NCBI RefSeq assembly: GCF_900116115.1
Contig: NZ_FOZP01000001.1
Span: 264,071 to 328,070, forward strand
Reading direction: 5' to 3'
Source: Lutibacter maritimus
GTDB lineage: Bacteria > Bacteroidota > Bacteroidia > Flavobacteriales > Flavobacteriaceae
Length of the DNA stretch: 64,000 nt
Position numbers and translations under genes: made by a program. The notes beneath the pieces are model-generated. The model made no database searches, had not been told where the DNA came from, and saw only the letters and a list, made by a program, of their open reading frames with translations. Each line of letters starts with the position of its first letter. Position 1 is the stretch's first letter. Shown in pieces: positions 18,916-28,192 of the stretch.

Positions 18916-19602
18916 TTAATATCCTTCTGAAATATTTTTTAATGCACTTTTATTTATAATTTTAATTTTCTTTCCAATTAAATCTATAACACGATCTTTT
19001 TTTAGGTTAGAAAGTAATCTAATTGCTGATTCTGTTGCAGTACCAATAGTGTTTGCTATTTCTTCTCGTGTTAAAATAACATCAATACAAGCTTCATTAT
19101 CAACTCCAAAAATTTCTTCTAAATAAATTAAAGTTTCAGCCAATCTATCTTTCACTGGTTTTTGAGCCATTTGTGAAATAGAAGTATTGGCATCATTTAG
19201 TTGCTGAGAAATATTTCGCATTAAATCCAACGAAAAATTAGCATTTTCTTTTATGGTTTCTAAAATATCACCTTTAGGAATAAAACAAACATGCATATCT
19301 TCAAGGGCAATGGCATTTAAACCAACTAATTCTTCGCTTAAAATAGACCTATGTCCTAATATATCACCACCTTTAATAAACTTTATAATTTGTTCCTTAC
19401 CGTTGGTATTTAGTTTAGTCATTTTACCTTTACCATCTCTAATGCAGTAAAGTCCATTTATAGCGTTTCCTTCAGTTAATAAGTTTTCTCCTTTTTTTAT
19501 AACCAAAGTAGTTTTGTGATCAGAAAATTTTTCTAATTCTTCTTGGGTTAATGTCTTTAAAGCGTTAAAACGTTTAATTATGCATTGTCTGCAGTTCGAC
19601 AT
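18916..19602 (-). CDS. Crp/FNR-family transcriptional regulator next to the cbb3 oxidase locus
   Basis: 228 residues. An N-terminal cyclic-nucleotide-binding-type beta roll, a dimer helix (FSLDLMRNISQQLNDAN) and a winged helix with LTREEIANTIGTATESAIRLL. C4 and C7 (CRQC) align with FNR C20 and C23, and C106 in HVCFIP aligns with FNR C122; the position of FNR C29 is N13. So three of four E. coli cluster ligands are kept. In the recognition helix E and R of the E-x-x-x-R pair that reads the TGA core are present. It likely senses oxygen and activates the divergent cco genes (inference). Confidence 0.88.
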   Translation of the reverse strand: MSNCRQCIIKRFNALKTLTQEELEKFSDHKTTLVIKKGENLLTEGNAINGLYCIRDGKGKMTKLNTNGKEQIIKFIKGGDILGHRSILSEELVGLNAIALEDMHVCFIPKGDILETIKENANFSLDLMRNISQQLNDANTSISQMAQKPVKDRLAETLIYLEEIFGVDNEACIDVILTREEIANTIGTATESAIRLLSNLKKDRVIDLIGKKIKIINKSALKNISEGY

Positions 19603-19636: not shown

Positions 19637-19644
19637 CAAATTTA
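19637..19644 (-). promoter_or_regulatory. -7 element of the FNR-like regulator gene
   Basis: CAAATTTA on the plus strand reads TAAATTTG on the minus strand. The nearer TGAn6TCA box (19655-19666) is centred 23.5 bases from the end of this element, where the -33 region would be, a position suited to autorepression. Confidence 0.55.
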
Positions 19645-19654
19645 AAAAATAAAA

Positions 19655-19666
19655 TGACAAATATCA
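19655..19666. promoter_or_regulatory. Candidate FNR-type box 1 (ccoI/fnr divergent region)
   Basis: TGACAAATATCA, a TGAn6TCA near-palindrome. Together with box 2 it forms a larger inverted repeat with 13-base arms (19654-19666 and 19678-19690). Centre 19660.5, 58.5 bases from the end of the ccoI -7 element. Confidence 0.55.
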
Positions 19667-19677
19667 CTTACAATGTA

Positions 19678-19689
19678 TGATATTTGTCA
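19678..19689. promoter_or_regulatory. Candidate FNR-type box 2, ccoI promoter
   Basis: TGATATTTGTCA, the inverted copy of box 1, centre 19683.5. It is 35.5 bases from the end of the ccoI -7 element, the same distance as the palindrome at the ccoS promoter; this is the class II activator position near -41. Confidence 0.65.
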
Positions 19690-19711
19690 TAGATAAAATT
19701 CAACTAATTTA

Positions 19712-19719
19712 TAGTTTTG
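19712..19719 (+). promoter_or_regulatory. -7 element of ccoI
   Basis: TAGTTTTG matches TAnnTTTG, 18 bases upstream of the ccoI ATG at 19738. No TTG is seen in the -33 region, as expected for an activator-dependent promoter. Confidence 0.65.
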
Positions 19720-19737
19720 CAAACGTAAATAATAAGT

Positions 19738-22113
19738 ATGAGTTCAAAAGATTGTTACCATTGTGGGGCAGATTGTGGTAAAAAACCAATTATTTTTAAC
19801 GAAAAAGAGTTTTGTTGTAACGGTTGTAAAACCGTTTACGAGATTTTAAATGCCAATGAATTAACTTGTTATTACGATTTGCAAAATGCTCCGGGCACTA
19901 TTCCTAAAGAGATTAAAGGCAAATTTAATTATTTAGAAAACCCCGAAATAGTTGAAAAATTGTTAGAATTTAATGATGGATCTACTTCGGTTGTTGAATT
20001 TTATATACCAAGCATACATTGTAGTTCTTGTATTTGGGTGCTGGAAAATTTATCGAAATTAAATAAAGGTGTAATTACATCTATGGTAAACTTTCCAAAT
20101 AAAACATTGCGAATAACTTTTAAAAATGACTTATGTCACTTAAAAGAGTTAGCAGAATTAATCACTTCAATTGGGTACGAACCCTACATAAGTTTAGAAG
20201 ACGACAATAAAAAGTTACATAAAGTTGATAAAACATTAATTTATCAGGTATCAATAGCAGCTTTTGCTTTTGGTAATATTATGCTTTTATCGTTTCCTGA
20301 ATATTTTGAGGTTGATGAATTTTGGTTGGAAAAATATAAATATTTGTTTAGATGGCTCATGTTTGTAATGGTAATTCCGGTAGTTTTTTATTCAGGAAAA
20401 GGCTATTTTATTTCGGCCTATAAAGGGTTAAAGCATAAAATATTAAATATTGATGTACCTATTGCGTTAGGAATTTCAGTATTATTTATTAGAAGTACTA
20501 TTGAAATACTGTTAGATATTGGCTCTGGTTTTTTTGATAGTTTGGCTGGATTGATTTTCTTTTTATTACTTGGTAAATTTTTTCAACAAAAAACCTATAA
20601 TTTTTTATCTTTTGAACGCGATTATAAATCGTATTTTCCCATTGCAGTGACTAAAATTGTTGATGGATTGGAAATAAATATTCCAGTGAATGATATTAAA
20701 AAAGGTGATAGATTGTTAATTAGAAATGAAGAATTAATACCTGTTGATGGAATTTTAATTAACGGAAATGCAGCTATCAATTATAGTTTTGTTACAGGTG
20801 AGTCTGTTCCAACAGTAAAACAAAGCGGCGATAAGTTATTTGCAGGAGGAAAACAAACGCAAGGCGCCATTGAAATGGAAGTAATTAGCACAATTTCTCA
20901 AAGTTATTTAACACAATTATGGAGTAATGATGTATTTAATAAAACAACTGATTTTACCATAAAAAATTTAACAGATTCTATAAGTAAATATTTTACCATT
21001 GCCATTTTAACTATTGCATTTTTTGCGGGTATATTTTGGTATTTTAAAAATCCATCAATGGCATTTAACGTTGTTACAGCCGTATTAATTATTGCTTGTC
21101 CGTGCGCATTAGCTTTGTCTGCGCCATTTGCTATTGGTAATATGTTACGAATTTTTGGTTACAAAAAATTCTATTTAAAAAATGCCGAAACTTTAGAACA
21201 AATTTCAAAAGTAACTACTATTATTTTTGATAAAACAGGAACTATTACTACAAGTCATAAAACACAATTGGAATATACTGGAACAGCTTTAACATCTGAC
21301 GAACTTAAAATAATTAAAACAGTTTTAAGAGCTTCAAATCATCCTTTAAGCAGAACTTTGTATGAGCATATTAATAAAAAACCATTTGCAGAAAAACTAA
21401 CTTCTTTTGATGAAATATTAGGAAAAGGTATTAAAGCTACTATAAATAATACGTCAATTCAATTAGGTTCTGCGAGTTTTGTTGAAGTAGCATCTAAAAG
21501 TATAAATGAAACTTCAATTTATGTTAAAATAAACAATGAAGTAAAAGGATGTTTTATATTTCAAAATAGTTATAGAGATGGTTTACAAGAAGTGTTTAAT
21601 ACATTAAAAGAAAACTACAATTTAATTATTTTATCTGGTGATAACGAAGGTGAAAAAACTTATTTGCAAAATTTTTTACCTAAAAACACTAAATTTCAAT
21701 TCAATCAAAAACCAGAAGATAAATTAAATTACATAAAAAATTTACAGCAAAAAGGAGAAAAGGTAATGATGGTTGGTGATGGTTTAAATGATGCGGGAGC
21801 TTTAGCGCAAAGCAATGTTGGAATTGCAATTTCAGAAGATGTAAATGTATTTTCTCCAGCTTGTGATGCTATTTTAGATGCAAAACTTTTCAACAAATTT
21901 CCAAAGTTTTTAACACTGTCAAATAAAACTATTGAAATAATTAAAACAAGTTTTGTAATTTCATTACTATATAATTTAATAGGTATGTATTTTGCATTAA
22001 CTGGTCAGTTAACGCCAGTTGTAGCAGCAATTTTAATGCCGTTAAGTTCAATAAGTATTGTGGTTTTTGTAACAGTTATGACTAATTTGGTTTCAAAAAA
22101 GTTTGTAATTTAG
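19738..22113 (+). CDS. ccoI: CcoI-type copper-transporting P1B ATPase
   Basis: 791 residues. A Cys-rich N-terminus (C6, C9, C13, C26, C27, C30) of the heavy-metal P-type ATPase metal-binding type is followed by an HMA-like domain with CSSC at 95-98, transmembrane helices, a CPC transport site at 454-456, DKTGT at 498-502 (phosphorylated D498) and GDGLNDAGAL in the hinge. In cbb3 clusters this pump (CcoI/FixI) exports copper to the periplasm for insertion into the oxidase CuB site. It is the first gene of the locus, under its own box-controlled promoter. Confidence 0.93.
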   Translation: MSSKDCYHCGADCGKKPIIFNEKEFCCNGCKTVYEILNANELTCYYDLQNAPGTIPKEIKGKFNYLENPEIVEKLLEFNDGSTSVVEFYIPSIHCSSCIWVLENLSKLNKGVITSMVNFPNKTLRITFKNDLCHLKELAELITSIGYEPYISLEDDNKKLHKVDKTLIYQVSIAAFAFGNIMLLSFPEYFEVDEFWLEKYKYLFRWLMFVMVIPVVFYSGKGYFISAYKGLKHKILNIDVPIALGISVLFIRSTIEILLDIGSGFFDSLAGLIFFLLLGKFFQQKTYNFLSFERDYKSYFPIAVTKIVDGLEINIPVNDIKKGDRLLIRNEELIPVDGILINGNAAINYSFVTGESVPTVKQSGDKLFAGGKQTQGAIEMEVISTISQSYLTQLWSNDVFNKTTDFTIKNLTDSISKYFTIAILTIAFFAGIFWYFKNPSMAFNVVTAVLIIACPCALALSAPFAIGNMLRIFGYKKFYLKNAETLEQISKVTTIIFDKTGTITTSHKTQLEYTGTALTSDELKIIKTVLRASNHPLSRTLYEHINKKPFAEKLTSFDEILGKGIKATINNTSIQLGSASFVEVASKSINETSIYVKINNEVKGCFIFQNSYRDGLQEVFNTLKENYNLIILSGDNEGEKTYLQNFLPKNTKFQFNQKPEDKLNYIKNLQQKGEKVMMVGDGLNDAGALAQSNVGIAISEDVNVFSPACDAILDAKLFNKFPKFLTLSNKTIEIIKTSFVISLLYNLIGMYFALTGQLTPVVAAILMPLSSISIVVFVTVMTNLVSKKFVI

Positions 22114-22130
22114 TTGACATTATTTTTTTA

Positions 22131-22148
22131 ATATGATAATTATCATAT
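22131..22148. promoter_or_regulatory. Candidate FNR-type box, ccoS-ccoNOQP promoter
   Basis: A perfect 18-base palindrome ATATGATAATTATCATAT with TGATAATTATCA as core, centred at 22139.5. Its centre is 35.5 bases from the end of the -7 element at 22168-22175, matching the ccoI arrangement exactly. Confidence 0.7.
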
Positions 22149-22167
22149 AATTTTTCATCGAAAAAAT

Positions 22168-22175
22168 TATTTTTG
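22168..22175 (+). promoter_or_regulatory. -7 element of the ccoS-ccoNOQP operon
   Basis: TATTTTTG matches TAnnTTTG, 33 bases upstream of the ccoS ATG at 22209. Confidence 0.68.
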
Positions 22176-22208: not shown

Positions 22209-22418
22209 ATGGAAGTCGTATATATTACAATAGGCGTTAGTATTATTGTAGCCATATTTTTTTTCATTATATTTATTAAATCAGTAAAATCTGGGCAGTA
22301 TGAAGATACGTATACGCCATCAGTACGTATGCTATTTGATGATGAGTTAGTTACTGAAAAAAATAAAGACAAACACAAAGACACTGAAAAGAAATCTCAA
22401 TCAACTAAAAATAAATAA
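22209..22418 (+). CDS. ccoS: CcoS, cbb3 oxidase maturation protein
   Basis: 69 residues: one N-terminal transmembrane helix (about 4-26), then SVKSGQYEDTYTPSVRMLFDD, the conserved CcoS segment with the GQY(E/D)D motif, and a charged tail. CcoS is needed for cofactor insertion into the cbb3 oxidase. It is the first gene of the structural operon, 21 bases before ccoNO. Confidence 0.93.
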   Translation: MEVVYITIGVSIIVAIFFFIIFIKSVKSGQYEDTYTPSVRMLFDDELVTEKNKDKHKDTEKKSQSTKNK

Positions 22419-22439: not shown

Positions 22440-24608
22440 ATGGAAAAAGAACAGTTTTATTATGATAATAAAATCGTAAAAATGTTCCTTTGGGCTACAA
22501 TTCTTTGGGGAGTTGTAGGAATGTTAGTAGGGCTTTTAGTAGCACTACTTTTTGTTTTCCCAGGACTATTAGAATTTGCAGGAGCAGATAACGCAATTTC
22601 TTGGTTAAGCTTTGGTCGTTTACGCCCATTGCATACCAATGCAGTTATTTTTGCTTTTGTGGGTAATGGAATCTTTTTAGGAGTTTATTATTCTACGCAA
22701 AGATTATTAAAAGCGAGAATGTTTAATGATGTTTTAAGTAGAATTCATTTTTGGGGTTGGCAAGCAATAATAGTTGCCGCTGCAATAACATTGCCTTTAG
22801 GTTTAACATCTTCAAAAGAGTATGCAGAATTAGAATGGCCAATTGATATTGCGGTTGTTTTAATTTGGGTGGTTTTTGGAATTAACTTAATTGGTACTAT
22901 TTTAAAACGAAGACAACGTCATATTTATGTGGCTATTTGGTTTTATATTGCCACATTAGTAACAATTGCTGTTCTTTATATATTTAACAATTTAGAAATG
23001 CCAGTATCTGCATTTAAAAGTTACTCAGTTTATTCAGGAGTGCAAGATGCATTGGTACAATGGTGGTACGGACATAATGCTGTGGCATTTTTCTTAACAA
23101 CACCAATTTTAGGTTTAATGTATTATTTTGTACCTAAAGTAGCGAATAGACCTGTTTATTCTTATAGATTATCCATTATTCACTTTTGGACATTAATTTT
23201 CTTATACATTTGGGCTGGTCCTCACCATTTATTATATACTGCTTTACCTGAATGGGCACAAAACTTAGGTACCGTATTTTCTGTAATGCTTATTTTCCCA
23301 TCATGGGGTGGTATGATTAATGGTTTATTAACATTGCGTGGTGCTTGGGATAAAGTTCGTGAAAACCCAGTGTTAAAATTCTTTGTGGTTGCAATTACTG
23401 GTTATGGTATGGCAACTTTTGAAGGACCAATGTTATCATTTAAAAATTTAAATGCTATTGGACATTATACTGATTGGATTGTAGGTCACGTTCATATTGG
23501 AGCATTAGCTTGGAACGGATTTATGATTGCTGGAATTGTATATTGGTTAGCTGAAAAACTTTGGAAAACACCATTATATTCTAGAAAATTAGCAAATACG
23601 CATTTTTGGTTAGGTACTTTAGGTATTTTATTTTATGCCATTCCATTATATGTTGCTGGGTTTACACAAGCTTTTATGTGGAAACAATTTAATCCTGATG
23701 GAACGTTAGTGTATGGTAACTTCCTTGAAACAGTTACACAAGTAATTCCAATGTACGCAATGCGTGCAATTGGTGGTACTTTATATTTAACCGGATTTAT
23801 TTTATTAGCAATAAACGTTATTAAAACTGCAAAAGCAGGTTCAACTGTTGAAGACGAATTAGCAGAAGCTGCTCCGTTGAAAAAAATTAGCGGACAAAGA
23901 GTTGCAGGTGAAGGTTTCCATACTTGGTTAGAAAGAAAAACAGTATTATTTACAATTTTAACCACAGTTGCTATTTTAATTGGTGGTTTGGTTGAAATTG
24001 TTCCATTAATTTTAGTAAAATCAAATATTCCAACTATAGAAAGTGTAAAACCTTATACCCCGCTTGAGTTAGAAGGAAGAGATATTTATATTAGAGAAGG
24101 TTGTAATAACTGTCACTCTCAAATGATTCGTCCTTTCCGTTCAGAAGTAGAACGATATGGTGAATATTCAAAAGCTGGAGAATATGTATATGATTTTCCA
24201 TTCTTATGGGGATCACGAAGAACTGGACCAGATGTTCATAGAGTTGGAGGAAAATATAATGACAACTGGCATTTTAATCACATGATGGATCCACGTTCAA
24301 CATCTCCAGGTTCAATAATGCCACGTTACTCTTGGTTACTTAAAAATGACATGAATGCTTCAAATTTAGAAAGTAAAATGAAAGGTTTAGTAACATTAGG
24401 AGTACCTTATACTGCAGAAGATATTAGCGGAGCTAAACAAGCACTTTTAGCACAAGCAAAAGAAATAGAAGGAAATTTAAGACAAGATCCTGAATTTGTG
24501 AAAAATTACGGTTCTAGTAATATTCAAAATAAAGAAATTGTTGCTTTAATTGCTTATTTACAACGTTTAGGTACGGATATTAAAGCAAACACAACAGCAT
24601 TAAAATAA
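22440..24608 (+). CDS. ccoNO: Fused CcoN-CcoO subunit of cbb3 cytochrome oxidase
   Basis: 722 residues, a single protein combining both catalytic subunits, as is usual in Bacteroidota. The CcoN half (about 1-490) has about 12 transmembrane helices with heme/copper ligands, e.g. HTNAVIFAF, WYGHNAVAF and HIGALAWNGF. The CcoO half carries one c-type heme motif CNNCH near residue 554 with a distal methionine in IMPRY. It reduces O2 to water with high affinity at the cytoplasmic membrane. Expression is probably raised at low oxygen by the box at 22131-22148. Confidence 0.97.
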   Translation: MEKEQFYYDNKIVKMFLWATILWGVVGMLVGLLVALLFVFPGLLEFAGADNAISWLSFGRLRPLHTNAVIFAFVGNGIFLGVYYSTQRLLKARMFNDVLSRIHFWGWQAIIVAAAITLPLGLTSSKEYAELEWPIDIAVVLIWVVFGINLIGTILKRRQRHIYVAIWFYIATLVTIAVLYIFNNLEMPVSAFKSYSVYSGVQDALVQWWYGHNAVAFFLTTPILGLMYYFVPKVANRPVYSYRLSIIHFWTLIFLYIWAGPHHLLYTALPEWAQNLGTVFSVMLIFPSWGGMINGLLTLRGAWDKVRENPVLKFFVVAITGYGMATFEGPMLSFKNLNAIGHYTDWIVGHVHIGALAWNGFMIAGIVYWLAEKLWKTPLYSRKLANTHFWLGTLGILFYAIPLYVAGFTQAFMWKQFNPDGTLVYGNFLETVTQVIPMYAMRAIGGTLYLTGFILLAINVIKTAKAGSTVEDELAEAAPLKKISGQRVAGEGFHTWLERKTVLFTILTTVAILIGGLVEIVPLILVKSNIPTIESVKPYTPLELEGRDIYIREGCNNCHSQMIRPFRSEVERYGEYSKAGEYVYDFPFLWGSRRTGPDVHRVGGKYNDNWHFNHMMDPRSTSPGSIMPRYSWLLKNDMNASNLESKMKGLVTLGVPYTAEDISGAKQALLAQAKEIEGNLRQDPEFVKNYGSSNIQNKEIVALIAYLQRLGTDIKANTTALK

Positions 24609-24614
24609 TTTTAT

Positions 24615-24809
24615 ATGTTAAAATTTATAAAGCATAATTTAGAAGGCATTGATGGCGTAGAAATATACCCAATAATTTCATTATTACTGTTTTTTACAGT
24701 ATTTGTAACTATGATTGTTTTTGTATATAAATTACCAAAACGAAATATTGATGAAGTTAGTCAATTGCCTTTAGATAACGATAATAATAAAGAATTTAAC
24801 CATGAATAA
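24615..24809 (+). CDS. ccoQ: CcoQ-like small cbb3 oxidase subunit
   Basis: 64 residues with one transmembrane helix (about 20-40: IISLLLFFTVFVTMIVFVY) and a KLPKRNIDEVSQLPLDND tail. Size, position between ccoNO and ccoP and the short tail fit CcoQ, which stabilises the complex. It overlaps ccoP by eight bases. Confidence 0.85.
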   Translation: MLKFIKHNLEGIDGVEIYPIISLLLFFTVFVTMIVFVYKLPKRNIDEVSQLPLDNDNNKEFNHE

Positions 24810-25449
24810 AAATTCAGAAAACATATCTGCTTGGAAAAGGTTTATGAAATCTATGACCAAAGCACACGACTTAGGAACCGAAGAAGATATTATGTTAGAC
24901 CATGATTATGATGGTATAAAAGAATTAGATAACGTATTGCCACCTTGGTGGTTAGCAGGGTTTTATATAACAATAGCAATTAGTATATTTTATTATATTC
25001 AAGTATTTTATAATTCAGAAGAATATAGTCAAGCAGAAGAATTTGCTACAGAAATAGCAGAAGGAAAAGCTCAGGTAGAAGCCTATAAAGCTGCTAACCC
25101 TCAATTATTTGATGATTCAAATATAGTTGCATTAACTGATGAAGAAAGTTTAGCAAAAGGAAAAGCATTATTTACTGAAAAAACATGTTTCGCTTGTCAT
25201 TTAGCTGATTTAGGAGGAAGTATTGGTCCTAATTTAACAGACAATAAATGGATTTTAGGTGGAGATGTTAAAAGCATTTTTAACACTATTTCTAAAGGTG
25301 GAAGACCAGGAAAAGGTATGATAGCTTGGGAAAGTACAATTAGTAGAGAAGAAAGAATTCAGTTAGCAAGTTATATTGTTTCAATGCAAGGGACTCAACC
25401 AGCAACGCCAAAAGCGCCTGAAGGAGATATTACTTGGCCTGAAGAATAA
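24802..25449 (+). CDS. ccoP: CcoP, c-type cytochrome subunit with a single heme site
   Basis: 215 residues. An N-terminal cytoplasmic stretch, a transmembrane helix at about 51-70 preceded by LDNVLPPWW (the FixP N-terminal domain signature), then one cytochrome c domain with CFACH at about 129-133 and distal methionine in GKGMIAW. Classical CcoP has two CxxCH motifs; here only one is present, so this is a monoheme form and electron entry differs from the proteobacterial enzyme. Confidence 0.92.
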   Translation: MNKNSENISAWKRFMKSMTKAHDLGTEEDIMLDHDYDGIKELDNVLPPWWLAGFYITIAISIFYYIQVFYNSEEYSQAEEFATEIAEGKAQVEAYKAANPQLFDDSNIVALTDEESLAKGKALFTEKTCFACHLADLGGSIGPNLTDNKWILGGDVKSIFNTISKGGRPGKGMIAWESTISREERIQLASYIVSMQGTQPATPKAPEGDITWPEE

Positions 25450-25602: not shown

Positions 25603-27018
25603 ATGGGAGAACAAGTAAAAGAAAAATTTAGAGATTCTATTGGAACAATAGATGAAAGTGGAAAAAGAAAATTTATTTTTCCAAAAAAACCACAAGGAAA
25701 ATTATACAATTACAGAACCTATGTAAGTTGGTTTTTATTAGCATTCTTATTAGCAGCTCCTTTTATTAAAGTGAAAGGAAATCAATTTTTGTTATTTAAT
25801 GTTATAGAACGTAAATTTCATATTTTCGGGTTTCCTTTTTGGCCGCAAGATTTTCATTTATTAGTAATATCTCTATTGGTAAGTGTTGTATTTGTAATAT
25901 TGTTTACAGTTGTTTTTGGTAGAATTTTTTGTGGATGGATGTGTCCTCAAACTATTTTTATGGAAATGGTTTTTAGAAAAATTGAATACCTAATTGAAGG
26001 TGATAGAAGTAAACAAATAAAACTTGAAAAACAAGCTTGGGATGCCGAGAAAATTAGAAAAAGAGTAACAAAATGGATTGCTTTCTTTTTAATTTCATTT
26101 ATCATTGCAAATGTATTTTTAGCATATATTGTTGGATCTGATGAAGTTTTAGCATATATATCAGAAGGTCCTTTAGCTCATGTGAGTATGCTAATTAAAT
26201 TATTAGCTTTTACAGCTGTTTTCTATTTTGTATTTGCTTGGTTTAGAGAGCAAGTGTGTATTATTGTTTGTCCATATGGAAGATTGCAAGGTGTTTTATT
26301 AGATAATAAATCTATAAATGTTGCTTACGATTTTGTTAGAGGAGAAGGAGAAAAAGGTAGGAAAAAGATTAGAAAAGGTGAAGATAGAGAAACGTTAGGG
26401 TATGGAGATTGTGTAGATTGTAAACAATGTGTACAAGTTTGCCCAACAGGTATTGACATTAGAAATGGAACTCAATTAGAATGTATAAACTGTACTGCTT
26501 GTATTGATGCTTGTAATGATATAATGGATAAAACTGGATTTGAAAGAGGTTTAATTCGTTATGCATCTGAAGACAATATTGAGAAAAAAGAGAAATTTAA
26601 ATTTACAGCAAGATTAATTGCATATTCAGTAATATTAACAATTTTAATAGGAGTTTTAGTTACCATGTTGTTTTTAAGAAATGATGTAGAAGCAACTATT
26701 TTGAGATTACCAGGACAAACATTTCAATCTACAGAAAACACAATTAAAAATGTATATACCGTAAAATTAATTAATAAAACTACGGAAGATATTGATGATG
26801 TTGAAATTAAATTAATATCACACAAAGGTGAAATTTTAATGGTTGGAGGCACTTTAAATGTAAAAAAACAAGGTTTAAAAGAAGGTACTTTATTTATTGA
26901 AATTAATAAAAAAGACCTAAATTCGTCGAAAGAAAAACTAAAAATTGGAATTTATTCCAAAGGTAAATTAATTGAAACCACTTCAACTAACTTTACCGGA
27001 CCTTTAAAAATAAACTAA
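25603..27018 (+). CDS. ccoG: CcoG, cbb3 oxidase accessory ferredoxin-type protein
   Basis: 471 residues. Transmembrane helices around 42-60 and 82-110, then CGWMCPQ and two ferredoxin-like cysteine clusters (CVDCKQCVQVCPTGIDI and CINCTACIDACN), then another helix and an Ig-like C-terminal FixG domain. CcoG reduces Cu(II) for cbb3 assembly. First of a CcoG-CcoH-SafE cluster with one-base spacing to ccoH. Confidence 0.95.
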   Translation: MGEQVKEKFRDSIGTIDESGKRKFIFPKKPQGKLYNYRTYVSWFLLAFLLAAPFIKVKGNQFLLFNVIERKFHIFGFPFWPQDFHLLVISLLVSVVFVILFTVVFGRIFCGWMCPQTIFMEMVFRKIEYLIEGDRSKQIKLEKQAWDAEKIRKRVTKWIAFFLISFIIANVFLAYIVGSDEVLAYISEGPLAHVSMLIKLLAFTAVFYFVFAWFREQVCIIVCPYGRLQGVLLDNKSINVAYDFVRGEGEKGRKKIRKGEDRETLGYGDCVDCKQCVQVCPTGIDIRNGTQLECINCTACIDACNDIMDKTGFERGLIRYASEDNIEKKEKFKFTARLIAYSVILTILIGVLVTMLFLRNDVEATILRLPGQTFQSTENTIKNVYTVKLINKTTEDIDDVEIKLISHKGEILMVGGTLNVKKQGLKEGTLFIEINKKDLNSSKEKLKIGIYSKGKLIETTSTNFTGPLKIN

Positions 27019-27471
27019 ATGAAATTAAAAATAAGTTGGCCAACGGGAATTATAATAGCAATTACAGCGTTTGTAATTTTTATTCTATCATTTGTGTATA
27101 AAGTTACATTTATGCCAGAATACGACCATCATTTAGTTTCTGAAGAATATTATAAAGATGAACTTAACTATCAGCAGGAAATTAATAAAGAAAATAAAGG
27201 TGTTGCTTTAAAAGAAAATATAAAAATTAAAAAGGACTCTTTAGGCTTAACAATTATATTTCCTGTTGAATTTGAGCCATCAAAAATAAATGGCACCATT
27301 TCTTTTGTTAGACTATCAAACGATAAAATTGATTTTAATATTCCAATTAAATTAACTTCAAATGAAATTTTAATTAAAGATGAAAAATTAGTTGAAGGTA
27401 GGTGGGATGTAAAAATTGAGTGGAATGTGAATAATATTGATTATTTATACAAAGAAAAATTAATTTATTAA
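27019..27471 (+). CDS. ccoH: CcoH/FixH-family protein
   Basis: 150 residues: a short N-terminus, one transmembrane helix (about 9-28), then a periplasmic domain with EEYYKDELNYQQEINKE, the FixH signature in which YY precedes a charged helix. It joins early assembly of the cbb3 complex. It begins directly after the ccoG stop. Confidence 0.9.
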   Translation: MKLKISWPTGIIIAITAFVIFILSFVYKVTFMPEYDHHLVSEEYYKDELNYQQEINKENKGVALKENIKIKKDSLGLTIIFPVEFEPSKINGTISFVRLSNDKIDFNIPIKLTSNEILIKDEKLVEGRWDVKIEWNVNNIDYLYKEKLIY

Positions 27472-27472
27472 T

Positions 27473-28192
27473 ATGCTTTGGACTGCACTAATTTTAGGAT
27501 TGGCTGGTAGTTTTCACTGTATTGGTATGTGCGGTCCTATCGCTTTTGTTTTACCTGTAGATAAATCATCCAAATCAAAATTAAGTTTTCAAACGTTTTT
27601 GTACCATTTTGGTAGATTATTAAGTTATTCTATAATTGGTGTTCTTTTTGGATTTATTGGAAAAGGATTGTATTTAGCAGGTTTTCAACAACGCTTATCC
27701 ATTTTGGTGGGCGTTTTAATGATTTTTTTAATAATAATTCCAGTTTCACTATTCAATAAATATAATTTCACAAAACCTTTATATAAAATTATTGGAAAAA
27801 TTAAGCAACAATTAGGACTTTATCTCAATAAAAAATCAAATAAATCAATTTTTTTAATTGGGTTCTTTAATGGTTTTTTACCTTGTGGATTAGTTTATAT
27901 GGCTTTAATTGGTTCAATTTCAACAGGTAATGCGTTAAATGGAGGATTGTATATGTTTTTATTTGGATTAGGAACAATTCCTTTAATGACAGCAGCAATT
28001 TTATTAGGAAATTTTGTTAATTTAACTCTTCGAAAAAAAATACAAAAAGCAATTCCAGTTTTTGTTGTTATTATCGGAATATTATTTATTTTGCGAGGGC
28101 TAGGTTTAGGTATTCCGTATATTTCACCTTCTGATGCGAAATTACAAATTTCTAATAATCCAGCAGAATGTATAACCGTTGAAAATGAATAG
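27473..28192 (+). CDS. TauE/SafE-family membrane protein (COG2836 type) of the cco cluster
   Basis: 239 residues with about six helices. The opening LGLAGSFHCIGMCGPIAF with GSxHCxGMCGP is the diagnostic motif of this family, often encoded right after ccoH; the second motif is FLPCGLVYMAL. The CxxxC and PCG cysteines suggest metal handling or thiol chemistry in copper delivery to the oxidase (inference). It begins one base after the ccoH stop. Confidence 0.88.
   Translation: MLWTALILGLAGSFHCIGMCGPIAFVLPVDKSSKSKLSFQTFLYHFGRLLSYSIIGVLFGFIGKGLYLAGFQQRLSILVGVLMIFLIIIPVSLFNKYNFTKPLYKIIGKIKQQLGLYLNKKSNKSIFLIGFFNGFLPCGLVYMALIGSISTGNALNGGLYMFLFGLGTIPLMTAAILLGNFVNLTLRKKIQKAIPVFVVIIGILFILRGLGLGIPYISPSDAKLQISNNPAECITVENE

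Follow-up and report, generated by a model that had tools for sequence, protein, structure and literature searches.

Are equally spaced palindromes in front of the genes for a cbb3 oxidase the operators of a regulatory protein, and if so, which protein reads them and what does it sense? The question is raised by a stretch of 64,000 nucleotides from Lutibacter maritimus (contig NZ_FOZP01000001.1, positions 264,071 to 328,070; hereafter the window), in which ccoI and the ccoS-ccoNOQP genes lie beside a divergent gene for an FNR-like protein. A sequence-only reading of this locus had described boxes of the form TGAn6TCA, centred in both promoters 35.5 bases from the end of a perfect TAnnTTTG -7 element, had remarked that a TTG at -33 is lacking in both, had judged the equal spacing unlikely to arise by chance, and had proposed the box as the motif of an oxygen regulon. 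We consider it probable that the palindromes serve as operators for an activator of the Crp/Fnr family, of which the adjacent FNR-like protein is the likeliest candidate; it would activate its targets at low oxygen, limit its own synthesis and hold an iron-sulfur cluster. The features of the two promoters are the following, boxes being given without a strand.

19678..19690: Box B, core TGATATTTGTCA at 19678-19689, right arm of an inverted repeat, at class II activator distance from ccoI (sequence)
19712..19719, plus strand: TAGTTTTG, -7 element of ccoI (sequence)
19738..22113, plus strand: ccoI, a ccoI/fixI-type heavy-metal P-type ATPase (Pfam, NCBIfam)
22134..22145: Box S, TGATAATTATCA, at class II activator distance from ccoS-ccoNOQP (sequence)
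22168..22175, plus strand: TATTTTTG, -7 element of the ccoS operon (sequence)
22209..22418, plus strand: ccoS (FixS) (Pfam, NCBIfam)

Both promoters share the pattern TGAYnnnnRTCA, a spacer of 22 base pairs (bp) and a perfect TAnnTTTG, and in each the centre of the box is 35.5 from the final G, just as had been claimed. This composite of box and -7 element occurs twice in the window and not at all in 100 dinucleotide-preserving shuffles. There is no TTG at the usual -33 distance in either promoter: the ccoS spacer contains none, and the sole TTG at ccoI lies within the box itself, its end 25 bp ahead of the -7 element. In class II promoters activated by Crp/Fnr proteins the operator is centred near -41.5 from the mapped start. 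Two marks of this class are the want of a good upstream TTG at -33, seen at both cco promoters, and a fixed distance from operator to -7 element, seen as a peak at 22-23 bp in this genome and in five others. For flavobacteria, TAnnTTTG itself has been described as the primary sigma factor's -7 box (PMC9723704).

The arrangement extends across the 80 loci fetched by means of CcoI, which include Lutibacter, Tenacibaculum, Polaribacter, Winogradskyella, Psychroserpens and Aquimarina. An exact TGAn6TCA stands upstream of ccoI in 79 of 80 sequences (the window and 79 loci; L026, without the 5' end of ccoI, is outside this count), the exception being L028 with almost no upstream sequence, as against 43 of 1930 windows of 85 bp taken within ccoI. 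The box together with TTTG at a distance of 34.5-36.5 is found upstream of ccoI in 78/80 sequences (scored as misses are L028, for its scant upstream sequence, and L029, with a box and no TTTG in range) and upstream of ccoS in 68/72, nine loci without a ccoS match being left out and the four misses being L013, L020 and L029, which have no exact box, and L081, which has a box with TTTA. Wherever the spacing could be measured at both genes it is equal (66 of 66 loci), amounting to 35.5 in 13 and 36.5 in 53, with a spacer of 22 bp in Lutibacter-like loci and 23 bp elsewhere. The palindromes and their equal spacing, whose absence from close relatives the earlier reading had named as grounds for giving up the idea, are in fact retained. 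The 3' flank of the box is T at 78/78 ccoI and 67/68 ccoS sites and its 5' flank is A at 55/78 and 58/68, respectively, and the cco box is, to judge from these flanks, better written as ATGAYnnnnRTCAT than as TGAn6TCA. The full TA of the -7 element is present at all 68 ccoS sites; the invariance of TTTG at the cco sites is no evidence, because it was a selection criterion. The leaders offer a further observation: outside Lutibacter (L031, L035, L056, L064 and others) there is a strongly conserved AGGCAAAAGAGTAAATATG or AGGTATAAATGAGCAAAT between the -7 element and the start of ccoI, and AATTATCAGGCAAGAT or CATAACTTCTAATAGGT in the corresponding place before ccoS, which may act as signals for the start of translation or as a leader element.

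A genome-wide scan, as the sequence-only reading had advised, yields a sharp peak at the same spacing. In the genome of L. maritimus TAnnTTTG is accompanied by TGAYnnnnRTCA at 10-40 bp in 38 instances, against 11 for the backwards pattern; the spacer is 22 bp in nine of them, 23 in 19 and 24 in two, with eight spread across the remaining 28 spacings. The share at 22-23 bp, 28/38, has a binomial probability of 1.2e-25, and 26 of these 28 sites fall outside long open frames. The peak recurs in G008 of the same genus (32/48) and, mostly at 23 bp, in the other genera represented by G110 (22/36), G118 (18/39), G126 (9/21) and G140 (17/33); these spacer counts cover the L. maritimus genome, one of eight same-genus genomes and four of five other-genus genomes (G169 being left out). 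With the laxer TGAn6TCA at exactly 22 bp, L. maritimus has nine matches versus three for the backwards pattern. At this exact spacing the 25 genomes of the genus, L. maritimus included, have 146 versus 5 (a hand-made sum), and 15 genomes of the order beyond the genus 4 versus 2, as is to be expected if the latter use 23 bp. An order-wide search with half-sites was set aside as too degenerate.

The genes behind these sites were annotated with Pfam, for a subset of the targets and over at most the first 400 residues of each. Those named in this way comprise: 1) in energy and carbon metabolism, pyruvate formate-lyase (pflB), formate-tetrahydrofolate ligase (fhs), phosphoenolpyruvate carboxykinase (pckA) and pyruvate phosphate dikinase. 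2) Among redox proteins, a POR-domain 2-oxoacid:ferredoxin oxidoreductase (kor), two ferredoxins, NADH dehydrogenase chain 3 (nuoA) and a flavodoxin-type protein. 3) An ArsR-type regulator, a sulfate permease and two universal stress proteins. 4) At spacer 24, FeoA and HypA. A cytochrome c target, which we take to resemble NorC, matched Cytochrom_C alone; another, presumably nrfH-like, gave no Pfam match for its first 70 residues, and its site, with AAAATTTG, is located in an opposite open frame. By its annotations this list has a strong low-oxygen flavour, though its sites need not all belong to one protein, and the wider gene set looks like a class II Crp/Fnr-type regulon with 22-23 bp spacing. 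The sites of fdx, the sulfate permease and fhs have RTCAC in place of RTCAT, and those of nuoA (L147) and one Crp paralogue (L153) are CCTGA..TCAGG boxes at 23 bp, flanks that suggest a separate Crp/Fnr regulator with a flank preference of its own. A single palindrome serves the divergent fdx (spacer 22) and POR-domain gene (spacer 23) in this genome (L002, L146; overlapping matches C9:163505-163546 and C9:163535-163577); the same overlapping pair, considered apart from its genes, is listed in G008, G013 and G021. Standing by itself is a protein of about 490 residues or more (L006; C15:9276-9317 of this genome), which lacks a Pfam match over its first 400 residues and has a box at spacer 22. 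A protein of this type in a relative (L093) has such a box too, and similarly spaced boxes, again apart from their genes, are listed for G011, G021 and G023.

The divergent side of the ccoI promoter holds a further box that the sequence-only reading had missed, Box A, and its surroundings are as follows.

18916..19602, minus strand: fnr-like gene, 228 amino acids, with Cys4, Cys7, Cys53 and Cys106 (cNMP_binding and HTH_Crp_2 domains)
19637..19644, minus strand: TAAATTTG, candidate fnr -7 element, with Box A 10 bp away (genome scan match C19:283707-283736)
19654..19666, no strand: Box A, core TGACAAATATCA at 19655-19666, left arm of the inverted repeat, at repression distance from fnr (sequence)

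In 70 of 81 loci the gene next to ccoI, and divergent from it, is fnr; three of the other 11 (L026, L028, L075) are truncated upstream. A single box lies between ccoI and fnr in 68 of the 70 loci, the window and L043 having two. A TAnnTTTR for fnr is found 21.5-24.5 from the box centre in 65/70, 43 of them with TTTG, for which the chance after shuffling is 0.4%. A box so placed, near -28 of fnr and over its promoter, would be in a repressing position; probably, then, one operator serves to activate ccoI and to limit fnr. Boxes A and B of the window form a perfect 13-bp inverted repeat with 11 nucleotides between the arms. Two boxes are present also in the near relative G021 (L187), and there as in the window their centres are 23 bp apart. 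One of the window's box centres is at the fnr distance of 23.5 and the other at the ccoI distance of 35.5, an arrangement in which the double duty of the operator appears to be split between two boxes.

The protein encoded by fnr matches PF00027, PF13545 and PF00325 above their cut-offs, that is, a cNMP-binding fold with a Crp-type helix-turn-helix; its best NCBIfam match is Fnr PRK11161, at 89.5 bits against a cut-off of 228. The cluster of Escherichia coli FNR is held by Cys20, Cys23, Cys29 and Cys122. In an alignment with the E. coli sequence and with FNR chains from the PDB, Cys4, Cys7 and Cys106 of the window protein correspond to Cys20, Cys23 and Cys122, whereas the Cys29 position is Asn13 and Cys53 aligns with Ala70 of FNR. 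Cys4, Cys7, Cys53 and Cys106 are invariant in all 70 of the neighbouring regulators, and position 13 is Asn in 68, Ser in two and never Cys. Class-wide homologues under 15 family labels likewise have all four cysteines in 30/30 (29 of the best and the window protein) and never Cys at position 13, in a set found by a profile of the regulator's own family, which favours the same cysteines, and drawn from the top-scoring matches. An extra Cys at position 16, absent from the window protein, is present in 18 of these 30 and could be a ligand in the members that have it. None of the six paralogues in the L. maritimus genome has the four-cysteine set. In an AlphaFold model (mean pLDDT 82.6, pTM 0.74; residues 1-20 at 62-64, the beta-roll good) strand 50-56 contains Cys53 and strand 103-109 contains Cys106, two strands that, going by the Crp fold, we assume to be neighbours. 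A side observation is that L169, a Crp/Fnr protein from the genome of L079, has the opposite pattern, CxxCx4C with a Cys at position 106 and with Phe at 53; it is nearer to the ligands of classical FNR, and its pattern fits a swap between the two ligand positions. The recognition helix of FNR reads E-x2-S-R; the E and R that the earlier reading had seen in the window protein, E191 and R195, are invariant in 49 aligned orthologues, and Ile194 aligns with Ser212 of FNR.

Compared with known systems, the regulator resembles E. coli FNR and the FNR-type regulator chains in the PDB (5cvr, 5e44, 9qlt and others), which are [4Fe-4S] oxygen sensors, in its Crp fold, helix-turn-helix and N-terminal CxxC, in the cysteine at the Cys122 position, the E and R of the helix, the TGAY..RTCA core, class II geometry and anaerobic targets. 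It differs in having Asn or Ser in place of Cys29, and the invariant Cys53 in place of Ala70. The operators differ too, since FNR has a TTGAT flank, with TTGATnnnnATCAA as its box, and a different -7 element, whereas here the boxes are flanked by A/T as ATGAY and face the TAnnTTTG of Bacteroidota. The regulator would behave like FNR at class II promoters, but it departs from the classical ligand set and falls below the NCBIfam cut-off. The FNR-type proteins of Bacillus subtilis and B. cereus have ligands unlike those of E. coli, in B. subtilis three C-terminal cysteines and an Asp (PMC3520743). Other FNR ligand sets therefore exist, although here the four invariant cysteines are distributed over the N-terminal part and the beta-roll. 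In Proteobacteria FnrL and FixK control ccoNOQP (PMC4634722, PMC7888657), a similar Fnr-type control of cbb3 oxidase in another phylum and with another -7 element, whereas in the present case one operator serves the promoter of the regulator itself as well. In a study of Crp/Fnr proteins from an anammox microbiome a Flavobacteriales homologue was placed near MalR and predicted to sense carbon (PMC8510549).

The conservation, the equal spacing, the genome-wide peak, the divergent fnr gene and the fitting targets all speak for operators read by the adjacent regulator; the following observations weigh against it. The T of the -7 TA at ccoI is present in just 17/78 sites, being mostly missing outside Lutibacter, and the third N-terminal cysteine of the classical four-ligand set is lacking. 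Some targets are not obviously connected with oxygen (proteins with a fasciclin domain or DUF47, and several that are unknown or secreted), and the core stands at 23 bp also ahead of nuoA and of uspA genes beside two fusions of a receiver domain to a Crp protein, from which it follows that not every site need belong to the neighbouring regulator. Moreover, the ccoI box is kept in 7/7 genomes searched that are without the neighbouring Fnr (seven of the eight fnr-less loci not truncated upstream, L071 being outside), and the four-cysteine set occurs in none of the 17 homologues read there (of 18; L185 gave no match), the best matches being 31-34% identical and the completeness of the genomes unstated. 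Another Crp/Fnr protein can therefore probably read the box. A motif specific to the neighbouring gene was ruled out, given that the helix recurs in other Crp/Fnr proteins and that genomes lacking the neighbour still have the box; the core is probably common to several Crp/Fnr proteins of this genome. The main reader might accordingly be a receiver-Crp fusion (response regulator, cNMP and HTH_Crp_2 domains), responding to phosphorylation by a histidine kinase, with Fnr in a secondary role. Three such fusions are present in L. maritimus, the genome for which Pfam was run on them; two have the near-identical helices ATESLIR and ATETFIR, against ATESAIR in Fnr, and all seven Fnr-less genomes have a homologue of 350-365 amino acids with the helix GIATESLIR or GIATETLIR and a fusion-like N-terminal part. 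The fusions have none of the four cysteines. Against a fusion as main reader, it is the Fnr gene that is the conserved divergent neighbour of ccoI, with an operator in its own promoter region. We think it rather improbable that a fusion is the main reader, though in L. maritimus Fnr and the fusions may share operators.

If the neighbouring regulator does act at these operators, it might still sense nitric oxide, thiol redox state or iron, or work without a cluster, as the one missing classical cysteine and the norC-like and nrfH-like genes among the possible targets would allow. Against this stand the four cysteines, invariant in the neighbours and in the best class-wide proteins read, and the fermentation, ferredoxin and microaerobic-respiration genes among the targets, and we regard a different signal as unlikely. 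That the palindromes and their equal spacing are a product of chance is hardly credible. The signal is modest without the -7 element, with 11 matches to TGAYnnnnRTCAT in the window against 2.42 expected and, for ATGAYnnnnRTCAT, 31 sites genome-wide where the backwards pattern has 22, but the shuffle comparison, the conservation and the spacing peak led us to reject chance. As the motif of an oxygen regulon, the box put forward in the sequence-only reading stands in its conservation and its 22-23 bp peak; it does not stand as a motif of the neighbour alone, and oxygen as the signal we infer from the target genes and from the induction of cbb3 in Flavobacterium psychrophilum. In that organism cbb3 is strongly increased, and heme genes are increased, under oxygen limitation (PMC9723704). 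In the parts of that genome-scale transcriptome paper covered here, supplements aside, no Crp/Fnr regulator is mentioned and neither 'crp' nor 'fnr' occurs, and among the matches listed in the open literature (subscription papers being outside this scope) no paper on the regulator or the motif was found.

Downstream of ccoS the locus continues with these genes.

22440..24608, plus strand: fused ccoN-ccoO, a single frame of 722 amino acids (COX1 and FixO; NCBIfam PRK14485)
24615..24809, plus strand: small open reading frame in the ccoQ position (position alone)
24802..25449, plus strand: ccoP (FixP_N in Pfam; ccoP model at 90.9 bits, below its cut-off of 179.95)
25603..27018, plus strand: ccoG (NCBIfam)
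27019..28192, plus strand: fixH-like gene and DsbD_2 (ccoH-like) gene, cco accessory genes (Pfam)

No match to TGAYnnnnRTCAT is found ahead of ccoG. For the control of this locus by the adjacent FNR-like protein we propose the following course. A dimer of the regulator would bind ATGAYnnnnRTCAT 22 bp ahead of the -7 element in Lutibacter-like cco promoters, or 23 bp in other genera, and from this class II position would contact RNA polymerase and replace the missing -33 element, such that ccoI and ccoSNOQP would rise jointly at low oxygen. The same operator, about 23 bp from the divergent fnr -7 element and over its promoter, would let the regulator limit its own synthesis, with the activating and repressing duties divided between two boxes in this genome. 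For its activity the regulator would need an oxygen-labile iron-sulfur cluster, with Cys4, Cys7, Cys106 and Cys53 as the ligands. A broader proposal, reasonable but tentative, is that a Bacteroidia-wide branch of FNR moved one ligand from the N-terminal loop (Cys29) to the beta-roll (Cys53, presumably facing the Cys106 strand), creating a new arrangement of an oxygen-sensing cluster, and controls a class II regulon suited to promoters of the TAnnTTTG type, in which one operator activates ccoI and represses fnr and is here split into two boxes.

The earlier interpretation is supported and largely right, and to it are added an operator both shared and doubled, a genome-wide rule of spacing, the receiver-Crp fusions as rival readers and the displaced cysteine. 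For flavobacteria, this provides a testable motif, a spacing rule and a list of targets for low-oxygen control, and the cysteine exchange turns into an answerable question: can the beta-roll supply a ligand for an FNR-type cluster?

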